Below, piece after piece: positions 3,918 to 23,964 of a stretch of 31,778 bases of DNA. Under the pieces are notes generated by a model. It was not told the DNA's origin. It saw only the letters and a program-made list of their open reading frames with translations, and did not search any database. The stretch is taken from IMG/VR virus record IMGVR_UViG_3300032304_000746, positions 1 through 31,778 of that record; one strand, 5' to 3'. The position numbers were made by a program, and so were the translations under genes. Origin of the DNA: a virus. Every line of letters starts with the position of its first letter. The stretch's first letter is position 1.

Positions 3918-4304
3918 CTAGGATTTCAGGGCGGAAATTAGATCGGAAATTTCTTTATTAAAATCAATTTTTGCCTCTACTTTTACATCCAATTTGGTGT
4001 CGCGGGTCTCGCGGTAGTCTTGCTGAAACTGGCCCCTAAGAGCTATTTCGACAAGCCGGCTATTGAAGTTCTTGTTTTCCACATTGGCGAGCAGCTGTGT
4101 CTCCCAATAGGACTGAGCGTGTACTAGCGCGATGTCCAGCGCCTCAGCAAACTCAGGGTGCTTCTTTCTCCAGGTCTCTGCTGTCTGTTTGGAGATCCCT
4201 ATTTTGGACCACATCATTTTCTGTGACGCGCCCTCTGTGCCCATAGCAATAATGGTATCGCACATTTTAGGATCAAATTTAGGGACCAGTTTATTATTTG
4301 CCAC
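3918..4304 (-). CDS. Putative terminase small subunit (HTH DNA-binding)
   Basis: 128 residues. An N-terminal helix-turn-helix is visible (ASQKMMWSKIGISKQTAETWRKKHPEF, about 26-52), followed by a helical segment with the EALDIALVHAQSYWE pattern typical of small terminase or phage HTH proteins, then RGQFQQDYRETRD and an acidic-basic tail. Known role of such proteins: recognise the packaging site and recruit the large subunit. Oddly, it is on the opposite strand and about 18 kb from the large terminase, whereas the two usually adjoin. It overlaps the DUF6321 gene by 11 bases. Alternative: a transcriptional regulator with a similar HTH. Confidence 0.5.
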   Translation of the reverse strand: MANNKLVPKFDPKMCDTIIAMGTEGASQKMMWSKIGISKQTAETWRKKHPEFAEALDIALVHAQSYWETQLLANVENKNFNSRLVEIALRGQFQQDYRETRDTKLDVKVEAKIDFNKEISDLISALKS

Positions 4305-4557
4305 ACTTCCACCTTTTCAAAGCTGCTGCTTTACGTGTTGGTTTACCGTTCTCGTCTTTCATTGGGCCTTTTACGCCGCTCATACGAGCGCAGAATGAGT
4401 CTTTACGAGCACCGCCTTCAGGTTGTGGTGCCTTGAGGTTGCTGCCAGTGGCTGCGTTGTACTTAGCACGACCCTTGGCTGTTAGTCCAGCACCTTGAGA
4501 CACTGGTAGCTTCTCGCCACGGCCAATAGCTAGGGATGGTGTCTTTTTAGTTGCCAT
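4294..4557 (-). CDS. Conserved phage protein, DUF6321-like
   Basis: 87 residues, strongly basic, no membrane segment. It carries the highly conserved pattern SLAIGRGEKLPVSQGAGL then TAKGRAKYNAATGSNLKAPQ and a C-terminal FCARM...RWKCGK, which I recognise from many environmental phages as DUF6321. The two C-terminal cysteines and many lysines suggest nucleic-acid binding or metal binding, but no function is known. It starts in a TAATG junction with the 48-aa gene upstream. Confidence 0.8.
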   Translation of the reverse strand: MATKKTPSLAIGRGEKLPVSQGAGLTAKGRAKYNAATGSNLKAPQPEGGARKDSFCARMSGVKGPMKDENGKPTRKAAALKRWKCGK

Positions 4558-4703
4558 TATTTTTTCTTAGCTGAAAGTAATTTCTCAACCATGGATATGC
4601 GTTGAGGTTTAGTTGTAACCTTGCTCACAATCTTTTCCCGCTCAGGCTTGGTCTTACCCTTGTCGTAAAACCCAGCCTTTTCTAATGCTTTTTTGGTTGC
4701 CAT
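4557..4703 (-). CDS. Small basic protein, 48 aa
   Basis: 48 residues beginning MATKKALEKAGFYDKGKTKP and ending LLSAKKK. Very lysine-rich, probably helical, not recognised. It is joined by TAATG overlaps to the genes on both sides, a sign of a translationally coupled unit of basic proteins. A nucleic-acid-associated or minor virion role is possible but not shown. Confidence 0.75.
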   Translation of the reverse strand: MATKKALEKAGFYDKGKTKPEREKIVSKVTTKPQRISMVEKLLSAKKK

Positions 4704-5032
4704 TATTTCTTCGCCTTGCCGCCTTTTTTAAGGAGCTCTAAGTTGCCGCGGGGGCGTGTTGGCGTAGGATTTACTGGAACATTTTCACCGTCCATATTCC
4801 TTGTTCTTGGCTTGGAAGAACCAAAACGATTTGGCATTTCAACTGAACTTATTGGAACATCTTTACCGTCAAAATTCATTGTTTTTGTCTTGGGTGTTCT
4901 TATCATGCCGGAGTCTAAATCTTTACCAGCGCGAGTGGCCTTTCGTGCTTCTGCAACAATATCGCCGCCCTCAGACATCTTCTTAACGCCACCGCCACAT
5001 GCCATCTTAGGCATCTTTTTAAAGTCTTTCAT
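4703..5032 (-). CDS. Lys/Gly-rich basic phage protein, 109 aa
   Basis: 109 residues beginning MKDFKKMPKMACGGGVKKMS and ending KKGGKAKK. The MACGGGVKKM start and Gly-Lys tail are seen in many environmental phages without known function. The middle contains an internal imperfect repeat: TMNFDGKDVPISSVEMPNRF and TRNMDGENVPVNPTPT share the pattern (N/M)-D-G-(K/E)-(D/N)-V-P. It overlaps the upstream 51-aa gene (ATGA) and the downstream 48-aa gene (TAATG). Confidence 0.75.
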   Translation of the reverse strand: MKDFKKMPKMACGGGVKKMSEGGDIVAEARKATRAGKDLDSGMIRTPKTKTMNFDGKDVPISSVEMPNRFGSSKPRTRNMDGENVPVNPTPTRPRGNLELLKKGGKAKK

Positions 5033-13442: not shown

Positions 13443-13647
13443 GTTGCAGTGCATCCATACTATCCTGACACAGTTAATGAGAATGATTCTCATTTGGCGA
13501 ACCAAAAATCAAGCACTTAGATTGTGTGTGTCAGGGTAGTACTAGTAGTACGGGTCTATCTCTCTTTTTTATTTTTATTTTAAAAAATAAAAAACGTAAG
13601 GGAGGCCTAAACTGGAATTAACCCGTACTACCCTGACAATCCTGACA
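13443..13647 (+). repeat. 205-bp repeat R1 (candidate replication site), copy next to primase
   Basis: R1 matches R2 (20990-21192) in the same orientation at roughly 80% identity by eye, over the whole length. It holds CCTGACA at 13464, 13632 and 13641 and the inverted TGTCAGG at 13529. TGTCAGGGTAGTAC (13529-13542) and GTAGTACGGGT (13545-13555) are the inverted complement of ACCCGTACTACCCTGACA (13621-13638). Between these arms lies a T-rich then A-rich stretch (13561-13594). It occupies the non-coding gap (13416-13695) upstream of the primase gene and probably carries its promoter. No second function such as transposase ends is visible. Confidence 0.85.
13476..13494. promoter_or_regulatory. 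Perfect 19-bp palindrome resembling a Fur box
   Basis: AATGAGAATGATTCTCATT, 9-1-9 symmetry. Its 15-bp core agrees with the Fur 7-1-7 consensus TGATAATNATTATCA at all but two symmetric positions. It lies inside R1; R2 has an imperfect counterpart at 21022-21040. Confidence 0.4.
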
Positions 13648-13695
13648 ATGATGCTGTAAGTCCTTGATTCTTGGTACTCCAAATGCGAATGATTC

Positions 13696-13830
13696 TTAAT
13701 AGCAAGTAACGAAGCCTCCTTGCACTATGCATACTGTCTGTCCACCCCCAGGTTGGTTAATGATTACGGTCTGGCTTGCTGTCACGCTAATTGGTAGTAA
13801 TACCATACAAATCAATAGGATACGCTTCAT
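13696..13830 (-). CDS. Small secreted cysteine-pair peptide, 44 aa
   Basis: 44 residues: MKRILLICMVLLPISVTASQ is a Sec signal peptide with cleavage likely after TAS or nearby, leaving ~25 residues with two cysteines (TVCIVQGGFVTCY). The ATG has GAGGTGAAG upstream and an ATGA overlap with the preceding gene. Similar signal-peptide-plus-C...TCY peptides are found in aquatic bacteria and phages without known role. It would act in the periplasm. Confidence 0.7.
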   Translation of the reverse strand: MKRILLICMVLLPISVTASQTVIINQPGGGQTVCIVQGGFVTCY

Positions 13831-20989: not shown

Positions 20990-21192
20990 CTGCACTGCAT
21001 CCATACTACCCTGACACAGTTAATGAGAATCATTTTCATTTGCGGCTAAACAAAACAACGACTTAGAATACGATTGTCAGGGTAGTACTAGTAGTACGGG
21101 TCTATTCTTCTTTTTATTTTAATTTTAAAAAATAAAAAACGTAGTGGCGGTCATAACTGGAATAGACCCGTACTACCCTGACAATCCTGACA
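20990..21192 (+). repeat. Repeat R2 (second copy, next to virion genes)
   Basis: Same orientation and same order of elements as R1 (13443-13647): CCTGACA at 21010, inverted TGTCAGG at 21075, CCTGACA at 21177 and 21186. The dyad arms are TGTCAGGGTAGTAC plus GTAGTACGGGTCTAT (21075-21105) and ATAGACCCGTACTACCCTGACA spread over 21162-21183, flanking a T/A-rich stretch. Here the first CCTGACA is also preceded by TACTAC, extending the match to the dyad arms. Two such sites 7.5 kb apart suit a paired replication origin. Confidence 0.85.
21022..21040. promoter_or_regulatory. Imperfect Fur-box-like palindrome in R2
   Basis: AATGAGAATCATTTTCATT, 9-1-9 arrangement with one broken pair; the equivalent in R1 is perfect. 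Confidence 0.35.
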
Positions 21193-21264: not shown

Positions 21265-21573
21265 ATGAGCAAGTACGTATATCAAATTCAAGGAGCGCTA
21301 GAAAGCGCTAGTGGACAGTTCCAAGGATTGCGGGTATTGGTATGCGACTTATACAATTTCGATTCGGTAGACGTACCCATGGAAATCCTAGACAAAGAGA
21401 CGGCTCGGTACATTGAGTTCCGTTTAAGAGTCACCACGGAAACCATGAATATCCAAAAGCTACCCATATCGGTTCAAAACAAAATACGAGCGCCGTTAGG
21501 GCGATGGCTGGATGAATGGGTCCTCGAGAATTTTTATGGCGATATTAGCAACAGAAAAAGTACTAACGCTTGA
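21265..21573 (+). CDS. Hypothetical protein, 102 aa
   Basis: First rightward gene. 102 residues: a beta-rich start (KYVYQIQGALESASGQFQGL), RVLVCDLYNFDSVDVPMEIL, and a helical basic end (KIRAPLGRWLDEWVLENFYG). No HTH or ATPase motif, so I do not call it the small terminase despite its position. No clear ribosome site; the ATG sits within the promoter-like motif. Overlaps the intein-like gene by 38 bases. Confidence 0.6.
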   Translation: MSKYVYQIQGALESASGQFQGLRVLVCDLYNFDSVDVPMEILDKETARYIEFRLRVTTETMNIQKLPISVQNKIRAPLGRWLDEWVLENFYGDISNRKSTNA

Positions 21574-22528
21574 CTACTGGAAGCCAGCAGAAAAGATTCA
21601 GGTTGGCGATTATGTATTTAATCAAACTGGCGACCTAGTTAAAGTAACCCTGGTACAAAAGTATCGCGCGGAGAACTGTTATCAAGTTACCTTCAACGAC
21701 CACCTTACCGTTTCGGGCGATGAGAAGCTCAACTTCCCGTTCGAGAACCACAAGTACCGTTCTAGGGTGTCGTTGTATAAGGGTCGGTTTAAGTTTAGGC
21801 GTCCGTTAGGCGACATAACGGTAGAGAAACTAAAAGACAGGCCGCTAAAGAAGGTCCCTGGAATACGATTAATATCGGTTCCTACCGCACATCCGTTAAA
21901 ACTCCCCCATCAAACGCTACCCATCCCTCCATTTGTGTTTGGCTATTGGTTTTTTAATAGAAAATTGCATAATAAAATGATCTTTAGTAAGAATCGGCAG
22001 GAGGAGATCACCCAGCGCTTCAAAGATTGCGGGTACAAAGTCATTGTGGGCAATAAAACACCCAACAACGAGCGGTACTTTACGGTTTCGCCATCGATTG
22101 AGTTGCAATTGGCGCCCAATGTACCCACTCGAATACCAAACAACTACCTCTTGGCGTCCGAAGAGCAGCGTATTGAGCTGCTGCAAGGCATCTTGGCAGC
22201 AAAAAGCCGGCAATATTCCAGAGAAAAGAATATATTTCGGGTTTCCAACAAAAATCTGCGACTTTTGGTGCAGGTTCAGTCTATAATCGAATCACTGGGT
22301 AGTAAAACTACCTTGGAACACAACCAACGTTGTACGAACTACATACTTTTTTTTAAATCAAAGATCGATTTGGTACCCAACCAGGATTTATCAAAAACTA
22401 AAATCCAGCTTGGTAGACGGTACCCTAAATTAATTGAGCCACTTAACCCTCAGTCTTGTGTGTACATCGAAACTGAAGGTAAGTTCAATCACATTCTCGT
22501 AGGAGAAGGGTTTATACCATGTCGTTAA
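21536..22528 (+). CDS. Free-standing decayed intein (Hint plus LAGLIDADG-like), splice-dead
   Basis: 330 residues with intein layout but no extein. Start ATG 21536. Block A: LATEKVLTLDYWKPAEKIQVG then DYVFNQTGDLVKVTLV matches intein N-termini, but Met1 sits where the splicing Cys/Ser1 should be. Block B (LTVSGDEKLNFPFENHK) lacks the usual TxxH. Middle ~130-270: FVFGYWFF and ELLQGILAAK recall LAGLIDADG motifs, both without the catalytic Asp, and a C-terminal SNKNLRLLVQVQSIIESLG helix. Block F: VYIETEGKFNHILVGEGFIP ends CR instead of His-Asn-Cys/Ser. Its end overlaps the TerL start by 10 bases. A domesticated intein working in trans or as a binding protein for TerL is inferred. Confidence 0.75.
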   Translation: MAILATEKVLTLDYWKPAEKIQVGDYVFNQTGDLVKVTLVQKYRAENCYQVTFNDHLTVSGDEKLNFPFENHKYRSRVSLYKGRFKFRRPLGDITVEKLKDRPLKKVPGIRLISVPTAHPLKLPHQTLPIPPFVFGYWFFNRKLHNKMIFSKNRQEEITQRFKDCGYKVIVGNKTPNNERYFTVSPSIELQLAPNVPTRIPNNYLLASEEQRIELLQGILAAKSRQYSREKNIFRVSNKNLRLLVQVQSIIESLGSKTTLEHNQRCTNYILFFKSKIDLVPNQDLSKTKIQLGRRYPKLIEPLNPQSCVYIETEGKFNHILVGEGFIPCR

Positions 22529-23964
22529 CACCTAAACAAGAAGCAATACTTAAAAAATTCGCGGAGTCGCATAAGCACTGGCCCAAACAACAGCTTGAGG
22601 CGGCTATTTGGCAGGTCAAATGGCACTTGCAGGCGCTTCCGCACCAAAGAGAACCAGAGGATGGGCAGTATGATACGTTTCTTATGTTGGCTGGTCGAGG
22701 ATCGGGCAAGACGCACACGGCTAGTCATTGGATTGGCATTCGTGCTTGGATGTACGACAACACTCGTTGGTTGGTCACAGCCCCTACCTCAAATGATATA
22801 CGGGCAACTTGTTTTGAAGGAGACTCCGGACTTCTTAATATCATCCCCTCGTCACTTATCCGAGATTACAACAAGTCCCTCTTTGAGATTACCCTTACCA
22901 ACGGATCCATCATCCAAGGTATTCCAGCATCCGAACCAGAACGGTACCGTGGTAAGCAGTACCATGGCGCTTGGTTCGACGAGCTGTGTGCGTTCGATTA
23001 CATCGATGATGCCTACGACGGCGTACAGTTTACCCTCCGTCTTAAGGACCCGCGAATCCCTCGAGTGCAGCAGATTATTACCACCACCCCCAAACCCAAA
23101 GAGCTCATCGTTGATCTCAACGAGGGAAAGGTAGGCGGGGACGTTTATGTAGCAAACGCCTCATCGTATGACAACCGTTCCAACCTGTCTGAAACGTTTT
23201 TCAAACAGCTTGAGACCTACGACGGCACCGACCTTGGCAGACAAGAGATCTACGGCGAGATCTTGGATCCAGAAGCCGCTGGTATTATAAAACGCAAGCA
23301 GTTTAGAATGTGGCCAGCCAACCGCGCAACCCCAGACCTGGAGTATGTGATTGCATCTTATGATCCGGCCACCAGCGAAAAGACAACCAACGACCCAACG
23401 GCGTGTACGGTATGGGGTGTGTTTGAACAGCTGGACGCGGGCACATCGGTCATACTGCTAGATGCATGGGACGCGCACATGTCCTACCCCGAGCTGCGTC
23501 GTAAGGTCATCGAAGACTTTAAGGAAGTAGTCTACGGCGCAGATAACGAGTTTGGAAAGGGCCGTAAAGCCGACCTGATACTCATGGAAGACAAATCCGC
23601 TGGTATCTCGCTGATCCTAGAACTCCAAGGCGCTGGCGTACCGGTCCGTGGATACAACCCTGGACGCGCAGATAAGGTGCAGCGGGTTAACATTGTGGCA
23701 CCCCTAGTAGCTAAGGGTAAAGTGTACATACCGGAAGACATGAAGCTCAAAGGCGACTTTGCAGACTGGGCCAAACGGTTCATCCGGCAGGTATGTTCGT
23801 TTCCAGAAGCAGGCGGGCACGATGACTATGTTGACTCCCTGTCCCAGGCATTGCGCGTACTGCGGGATTCGGGGTGGGTACGACTTGACCCCCTGCCAGC
23901 CCGCGATTACGACTACGCAGACGAAGATGTGGCAAAAAGATATTCAAATCCCTATGCCCAATAG
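22519..23964 (+). CDS. terL: Terminase large subunit (packaging ATPase-nuclease)
   Basis: 481 residues. ATPase: Walker A GRGSGKT (59-65), adenine-proximal TAPTSNDIRATCFEG, Walker B WFDEL (152-156), and coupling motif TTTPKP. Nuclease: YDPATSEKTTNDPTACTVWG with the first metal Asp, LMEDKSAG with the second, and HDDYVDSLSQAL with the last. The motor pumps DNA into the prohead and cuts it. The gene is uninterrupted; the intein-like gene precedes it with a 10-base overlap. It is followed by a hairpin-like GCCCAATAGGGC at its stop and then a promoter motif. Confidence 0.96.
   Translation: MSLTPKQEAILKKFAESHKHWPKQQLEAAIWQVKWHLQALPHQREPEDGQYDTFLMLAGRGSGKTHTASHWIGIRAWMYDNTRWLVTAPTSNDIRATCFEGDSGLLNIIPSSLIRDYNKSLFEITLTNGSIIQGIPASEPERYRGKQYHGAWFDELCAFDYIDDAYDGVQFTLRLKDPRIPRVQQIITTTPKPKELIVDLNEGKVGGDVYVANASSYDNRSNLSETFFKQLETYDGTDLGRQEIYGEILDPEAAGIIKRKQFRMWPANRATPDLEYVIASYDPATSEKTTNDPTACTVWGVFEQLDAGTSVILLDAWDAHMSYPELRRKVIEDFKEVVYGADNEFGKGRKADLILMEDKSAGISLILELQGAGVPVRGYNPGRADKVQRVNIVAPLVAKGKVYIPEDMKLKGDFADWAKRFIRQVCSFPEAGGHDDYVDSLSQALRVLRDSGWVRLDPLPARDYDYADEDVAKRYSNPYAQ

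Follow-up and report, generated by a model that had tools for sequence, protein, structure and literature searches.

A free-standing intein-derived gene, predicted to be inactive, fixed upstream of terL in an uncultured phage clade

Genes and sequence features at the locus

The window is the whole stretch of DNA that was analyzed, positions 1 to 31,778 of the IMG/VR virus record IMGVR_UViG_3300032304_000746. The locus begins with UP (21265–21573, plus strand), an open reading frame for a protein of 102 amino acids whose family is unassigned. UP is followed by HINT (21536–22528, plus strand; 330 amino acids and a stop codon), which was recognized as a free-standing intein-derived gene from its open reading frame, AlphaFold model, Foldseek matches, and family alignment. 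The next gene is terL (22519–23964, plus strand; Terminase_6N/6C), which is uninterrupted and has an intact Walker A motif, GRGSGKT. In the map of open reading frames, HINT is open throughout its 330 codons and overlaps UP by 38 bases and terL by 10 bases. A preliminary description of this DNA had likewise placed a separate, intact frame directly upstream of terL, with the same 10-base overlap. A likely ribosome-binding site for terL, GGAGAAGG (22502–22509, plus strand), lies inside the Gly-Glu-Gly codons of HINT. The GGA codon is favored for the first glycine of this GEG.

UP always precedes HINT in the HINT clade, and no UP homologue was detectable in the sister TerL clade. The predicted fold of UP is beta-beta-beta-alpha-alpha. 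This model is fairly confident and had no significant match in the PDB. A library of defense systems gave no match for either HINT or UP.

Two copies of a regulatory-looking array are present in the window (13470–13700 and 20990–21190). In each, a Fur-box-like palindrome is followed by inverted arms of iterons of about 9 bp around an A+T-rich core. The palindrome, AATGAGAATNATTCTCATT, is exact at 13476 and has one mismatch at 21022, with 0.02 matches expected. Most relatives have this layout upstream of UP as well, with other iteron sequences. The arrays are possibly an origin or an operator.

Fold, residues, and class 3 relatives of HINT

The AlphaFold model of HINT, made from an alignment of 55 family members, has a pLDDT of 90.8 and a pTM of 0.86. 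Its top PDB matches are the PI-SceI/VMA inteins (Foldseek, E 3.9e-13, TMq 0.70). PI-SceI, the best solved structure found, is an intein with a homing endonuclease. The model has two LAGLIDADG helices and the saddle fold, and Foldseek also matches I-DmoI. Thus, the Hint-type protein with a LAGLIDADG-like middle that had been proposed from the sequence is borne out by structure prediction. Among the top viral matches, many are TerL, DnaB, and Cas4 proteins of phages that carry an intein. Pfam gave a single weak LAGLIDADG match for HINT (E 0.023), and weak Hom_end and LAGLIDADG_3 matches were also obtained. A PHROG terL family matches HINT through its intein segment (E 1.2e-11), and the HINT family profile matches intein-bearing TerLs at an E of about 1e-25 in a ten-sequence set. 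A tblastn search of phage records returned full-length remote matches (about 25% identity), mostly within intein-bearing proteins. No helix-turn-helix (HTH) was matched in the Pfam search of HINT, and the C-terminus of the model consists of Hint beta strands. The predicted fold is Hint plus LAGLIDADG and not HNH. Judged by the model and by the fold and profile matches, the Hint/LAGLIDADG nature of HINT is far beyond chance.

Class 3 inteins have no nucleophile at position 1 and carry a Trp-Cys-Thr triplet (PMC5050341). The annotated proteins closest to HINT are class 3 inteins, most of which interrupt the P-loop of a phage TerL or helicase between GK and T/S. In the annotated homologues examined, the intein ends with THN, the next residue is T or S, and the block F Cys is present. 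Most of them start directly after the Walker A lysine, as in the TerL of TeardropMSU, B23, and FL04 (GK, then ALDVETPILT...), and the helicase inteins of Rabinovish and Papperlapapp are likewise among these. HINT matches the class 3 P-loop inteins over its full length, with a size of 329–331 amino acids in most cases. Like class 3 inteins (PMC5050341), it has a non-nucleophilic residue 1, a block F Cys, and two LAGLIDADG helices. Unlike them, it is free-standing and lacks exteins, the block B Trp, the His-Asn, and the catalytic acids.

Residues were counted over 118 distinct full-length HINT members. Block A (21536–21580, plus strand) reads M(-1) A(+1) I L A T E K V L T L D Y W. A2 is found in 118 of 118 and I3 in 117 of 118, and seven of the 118 start with TTG. 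From A2 to W15, HINT aligns without gaps to the TerL P-loop inteins, with GK followed by ALDVETPILTGNGW in the inteins and M followed by AILATEKVLTLDYW in HINT. Met1 is therefore at position -1, in place of the last N-extein residue, and Ala2 is at position +1. This corrects the earlier suggestion that Met1 replaces the first splicing residue. The stop codon stands about where the terminal Asn codon of an intein would stand. With both ends placed in this way, the gene is almost exactly one intein.

The remnant of blocks F/G, LVGEGFIPCR-stop (22496–22528, plus strand), is without His-Asn, and a C-terminal His-Asn is found in none of the 118, in agreement with the preliminary description. Thr at block G:5 occurs in about 9 of the 118 C-termini. 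The block B:12 Trp is absent from all members, with position 66 never Trp, and the His at the block B position is kept in 48 of 118. Cys308 (22457–22459, plus strand), which corresponds to the block F:4 nucleophile of class 3 inteins, is kept in 118 of 118. The other conserved Cys, at the C-terminus, is dictated by the overlapping terL ATG (A TGY). It was ruled out as a catalytic residue, since the terL start codon forces it.

The first LAGLIDADG helix is formed by residues 132–141 (PFVFGYWFFN; 21929–21958, plus strand), where Asp is replaced by N141. The second is formed by residues 209–223 (EEQRIELLQGILAAK; 22160–22204, plus strand), where Asp is replaced by K223. Both were located by the intein alignment and the model, and residues 141 and 223 are called catalytic from that alignment and the established anatomy of LAGLIDADG proteins. 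Both aspartates had been noted as missing from the window protein, and the acids proved to be absent from all 118 members: residue 141 is N in 88 and otherwise A, S, T, or G, while residue 223 is K in 113 and R in five. As read from this alignment, the apparent change of the second catalytic Asp to Lys/Arg in every member is not random decay. A basic stretch at residues 70–91 (E..KYR.R...YKG...FRRPL; 21743–21808, plus strand) is specific to the HINT family, in which it is strongly conserved. It is poorly matched by inteins. Based on these residues, HINT is an intein-derived, free-standing gene that is predicted to be dead for splicing and as a nuclease.

HINT is a free-standing open reading frame in all loci and never lies within the frame of a host protein. 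Among the sequences fetched in three viral scans, which were run with the window protein or with family alignments, no member was still fused to a host gene, and none was fused to TerL with a terminal Asn. The highest profile scores of the HINT family are with TerL inteins (B23, FL04, Minerva), and Cas4 inteins are close behind. In the maximum-likelihood tree, HINT is one clade (100/100) with a long stem, and TerL and other inteins are mixed on the other side. The proposed relationship to inteins thus held up, while a specific tie to terL inteins did not emerge, because the long branch leaves HINT unplaced among the sampled inteins. The class 3 inteins related to it sit in several different host proteins (TerL, Cas4, and helicases). 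It is plausible that HINT came out of terL.

Fixation, selection, and the small terminase

A set of 70 loci was fetched by TerL alone, with 1.2 kb of upstream sequence. HINT lies upstream of terL in all 70, and in 68 the two are adjacent or overlapping. In the other two, a 451-base HNH-type open reading frame parts them. A second set includes loci fetched by HINT itself, and HINT is present in 215 of its 215 loci with enough upstream sequence. One contig (L078, L090, and L333 are the same contig) has a stop at codon 274 of HINT, and the truncated loci L113 and L124 are rearranged. HNH-type homing endonuclease-like open reading frames were seen between HINT and terL in L109 (5550–6001) and L084 (968–1419), and an HNH-type one between UP and HINT in L147 (about 4510–5018).

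The median dN/dS is 0.096 for HINT and 0.035 for TerL. By parts of HINT, it is 0.097 for Hint-N, 0.113 for the endonuclease domain, and 0.045 for the C-terminus, which is the most constrained. These values were obtained by the Nei-Gojobori method from pairs with 0.1 < dS < 1.5, and they are descriptive, as the pairs are not independent. They point to purifying selection and away from the neutral decay that would have undone the earlier proposal. The family has a pI of 9.60 +/- 0.15, and the endonuclease domain of the window protein has a pI of 10.1. The distances of HINT and TerL are weakly correlated (Spearman 0.35). By its sequence record, HINT appears as a fixed, doubly inactive, domesticated intein of an uncultured phage clade. 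Because a gene that looks dead for splicing and cleavage is held under purifying selection, a new job is likely, as was first supposed.

One such job could be that of the small terminase (TerS). The sister TerL clade, with a TerL that is 53% identical, comprises ctpbd312 and 80 viral contigs. Its TerS is encoded in exactly the slot upstream of terL that HINT occupies, and HINT and UP were not found there. This arrangement made a replacement attractive, as did the lack of the Sf6-type TerS family in the HINT clade. However, the window has a separate TerS gene (3918–4304, minus strand; 128 amino acids) that matches phrog_309 at an E of 1.8e-14. Of 17 clade records, 12 have a homologue of it, and the contigs of the remaining five stop so close to HINT that this position is not covered. 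HINT had no match to TerS families in Pfam and PHROG searches. The separate phrog_309 gene contradicts the candidate role. HINT is most likely not the small terminase, and of all the roles considered a TerS replacement has the slimmest chance.

The TerS proteins of the sister clade (L180–L259 and L161) have three N-terminal modules and one common C-terminal tail, GDDxxPVVxEHNxNVFGELLKxIKxxRQ. By sequence, it looks as if a DNA-binding part had been swapped and a TerL-docking tail kept. In L162 (2445–3113; Caulobacter phage RW) and L191 (774–1319), a fragment paralogous to the TerL N-terminus lies between TerS and terL.

Possible roles of HINT

The role that is tentatively preferred, at a probability of roughly 45%, is that of an accessory that binds DNA without cutting it and serves packaging or late expression. 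A class 3-type intein would have become a free-standing gene with ends that lie almost exactly at the splice junctions. Its residues for protein splicing and homing-endonuclease cleavage would then have been lost, and it may have been domesticated as a core gene of the phage clade. The LAGLIDADG saddle, with the acid pair now Asn/Lys, could grip a phage site sequence-specifically without cutting it, and the Hint part and the basic stretch 70–91 could bind to another protein, for example TerL, TerS, or UP. HINT is probably translated from a coupled message that also carries UP and terL. We infer from these features that HINT may bind DNA, may assist packaging or late expression, and may have one of these proteins as its partner.

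The whole-intein fold of the model, including the homing endonuclease domain, counts for such an accessory, together with the loss of the catalytic acids and the His-Asn in every member, the fixed place beside terL, and the purifying selection. An intein stripped of splicing and cutting still has a DNA-binding fold and a Hint body, and binding need not disappear with the acids. The charge of the protein bears on it as well. The active TliVMA intein has a pI of 10.23 and binds its site, and the decayed PhoVMA, with a pI of 5.45, showed no detectable binding (PMC8966425). Set against this VMA pair, the basic charge kept in HINT argues that DNA binding was kept. HK97 gp74, an HNH nuclease encoded beside the terminase, promotes cos cleavage (PMC9410871; discussed in PMC10448857), and it serves as an earlier example of a homing-type gene taken into packaging. 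The weak correlation of HINT and TerL distances counts against the accessory. So does the covariation of HINT columns with iteron type, which is no stronger than in a TerL control that was equally significant; UP columns were also tested. The top covarying HINT columns are mostly in the Hint N-terminal part and not in the DNA-contacting strands. A more specific form of the accessory, in which the dead intein is an obligate part of a packaging or late-switch machine whose saddle recognizes a phage site and passes it on to the terminase, the gene of which overlaps HINT, is possible but has the odds against it.

The DNA-binding accessory is favored over a purely protein-binding role, and that role over a shield against homing. 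In the protein-binding role, the Hint body would bind TerL or UP and hold or time motor assembly, with the saddle as a scaffold only. This is unlikely, although the strict adjacency and overlap with terL and the position of the family-specific stretch 70–91 in the Hint part would suit it. The degenerate LAGLIDADG domain of WhiA does not itself footprint DNA and need not bind it alone (PMC3781837), and the HINT saddle may therefore serve another purpose. Yet the endonuclease domain is strongly basic and has a dN/dS close to that of the Hint part (0.113 vs. 0.097), and the distances of HINT and TerL again correlate only weakly. As a shield, dead HINT would cover an ancestral homing site, in the terL P-loop codons or around them, and keep active class 3 inteins or other homing genes out of terL. 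Its relatives are indeed P-loop inteins of terL-type genes, terL is uninterrupted in the HINT clade, and the HNH-type reading frames of L084, L109, and L147 indicate a locus that attracts homing genes. Those genes insert on both sides of HINT, however, so not all are excluded, and the sister clade, which lacks HINT, also has an uninterrupted terL in nearly all loci. The shield is improbable.

Less probable still is a residual activity, by which HINT would nick or cleave DNA or, via Cys308, cut a peptide bond, with altered chemistry. The invariant block F Cys and the block B-position His of 48 members would be at hand for it, but both catalytic acids are gone in all members, and there is no terminal Asn, no block B Trp, and no exteins worth joining. 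It is even harder to believe that HINT is a passenger, kept only because it carries the terL ribosome-binding site in frame and couples terL translation. The terL overlap, the likely site in the GEG codons, and the highly constrained C-terminal part (0.045) would all follow from this. The constraint nevertheless reaches through all parts of the protein, the middle domain among them, the confident model keeps the fold of a full intein, and HINT is intact in L109 even though an HNH-type reading frame parts it from terL.

Inteins are the textbook selfish protein element. To our knowledge, few have been domesticated, and HO, one such case, kept its nuclease. Like yeast HO/WHO (PMC7282813), HINT is a free-standing intein-derived protein without exteins and without block G. 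WHO is encoded beside a target gene, and HO is also domesticated. Unlike HINT, HO/WHO, although splice-dead, keep nuclease activity and a zinc finger. HINT lacks both catalytic acids and ends at the intein C-terminus with no CxxC in its sequence. Other known systems resemble it in part. WhiA is a domesticated LAGLIDADG fold without catalytic residues, but it has no Hint domain, binds DNA mainly via an added HTH, and is a cellular regulator (PMC3781837). HK97 gp74 and related HNH proteins are encoded by homing-type nuclease genes that are fixed beside terminase genes and aid packaging (PMC9410871, PMC10448857). However, gp74 has an HNH fold, is still a nuclease, and is not an intein. In the PhoVMA intein the endonuclease is inactive, as is predicted for HINT, but it is still in its host gene and its basic charge is lost (PMC8966425). 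The class 3 intein pseudogene Arth_1007 has lost splicing, as HINT appears to have, and has only short exteins (PMC3196547). It differs as a single inactive pseudogene without the block F Cys and without a fixed family. No published description of the HINT family was found in the open-access literature. The apparent loss of both activities, the fixation in a clade, and the seat on the terminase gene together set HINT apart from known domesticated inteins.

The findings suggest that in this clade a selfish element has been put to a new use. Since both activities are apparently lost and the gene is fixed in a large clade, with an intact frame and strong constraint, the Hint-plus-saddle architecture as a whole must be of use on its own. 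HINT makes a concrete question testable, that of what a dead intein can do. Phage packaging also gains a candidate accessory factor, which joins the HNH proteins recruited there.

Other features of the relatives can be noted. A single MAG of an uncultured beta-proteobacterium (Umea2p1_bin-1447) contains three clade contigs (L260–L262), which is a weak host hint only. A GroES-like co-chaperonin and a short sigma-70 region 4-like protein are encoded in relatives (L170, 18131–18571, and L169, 17512–17682; relative G002).
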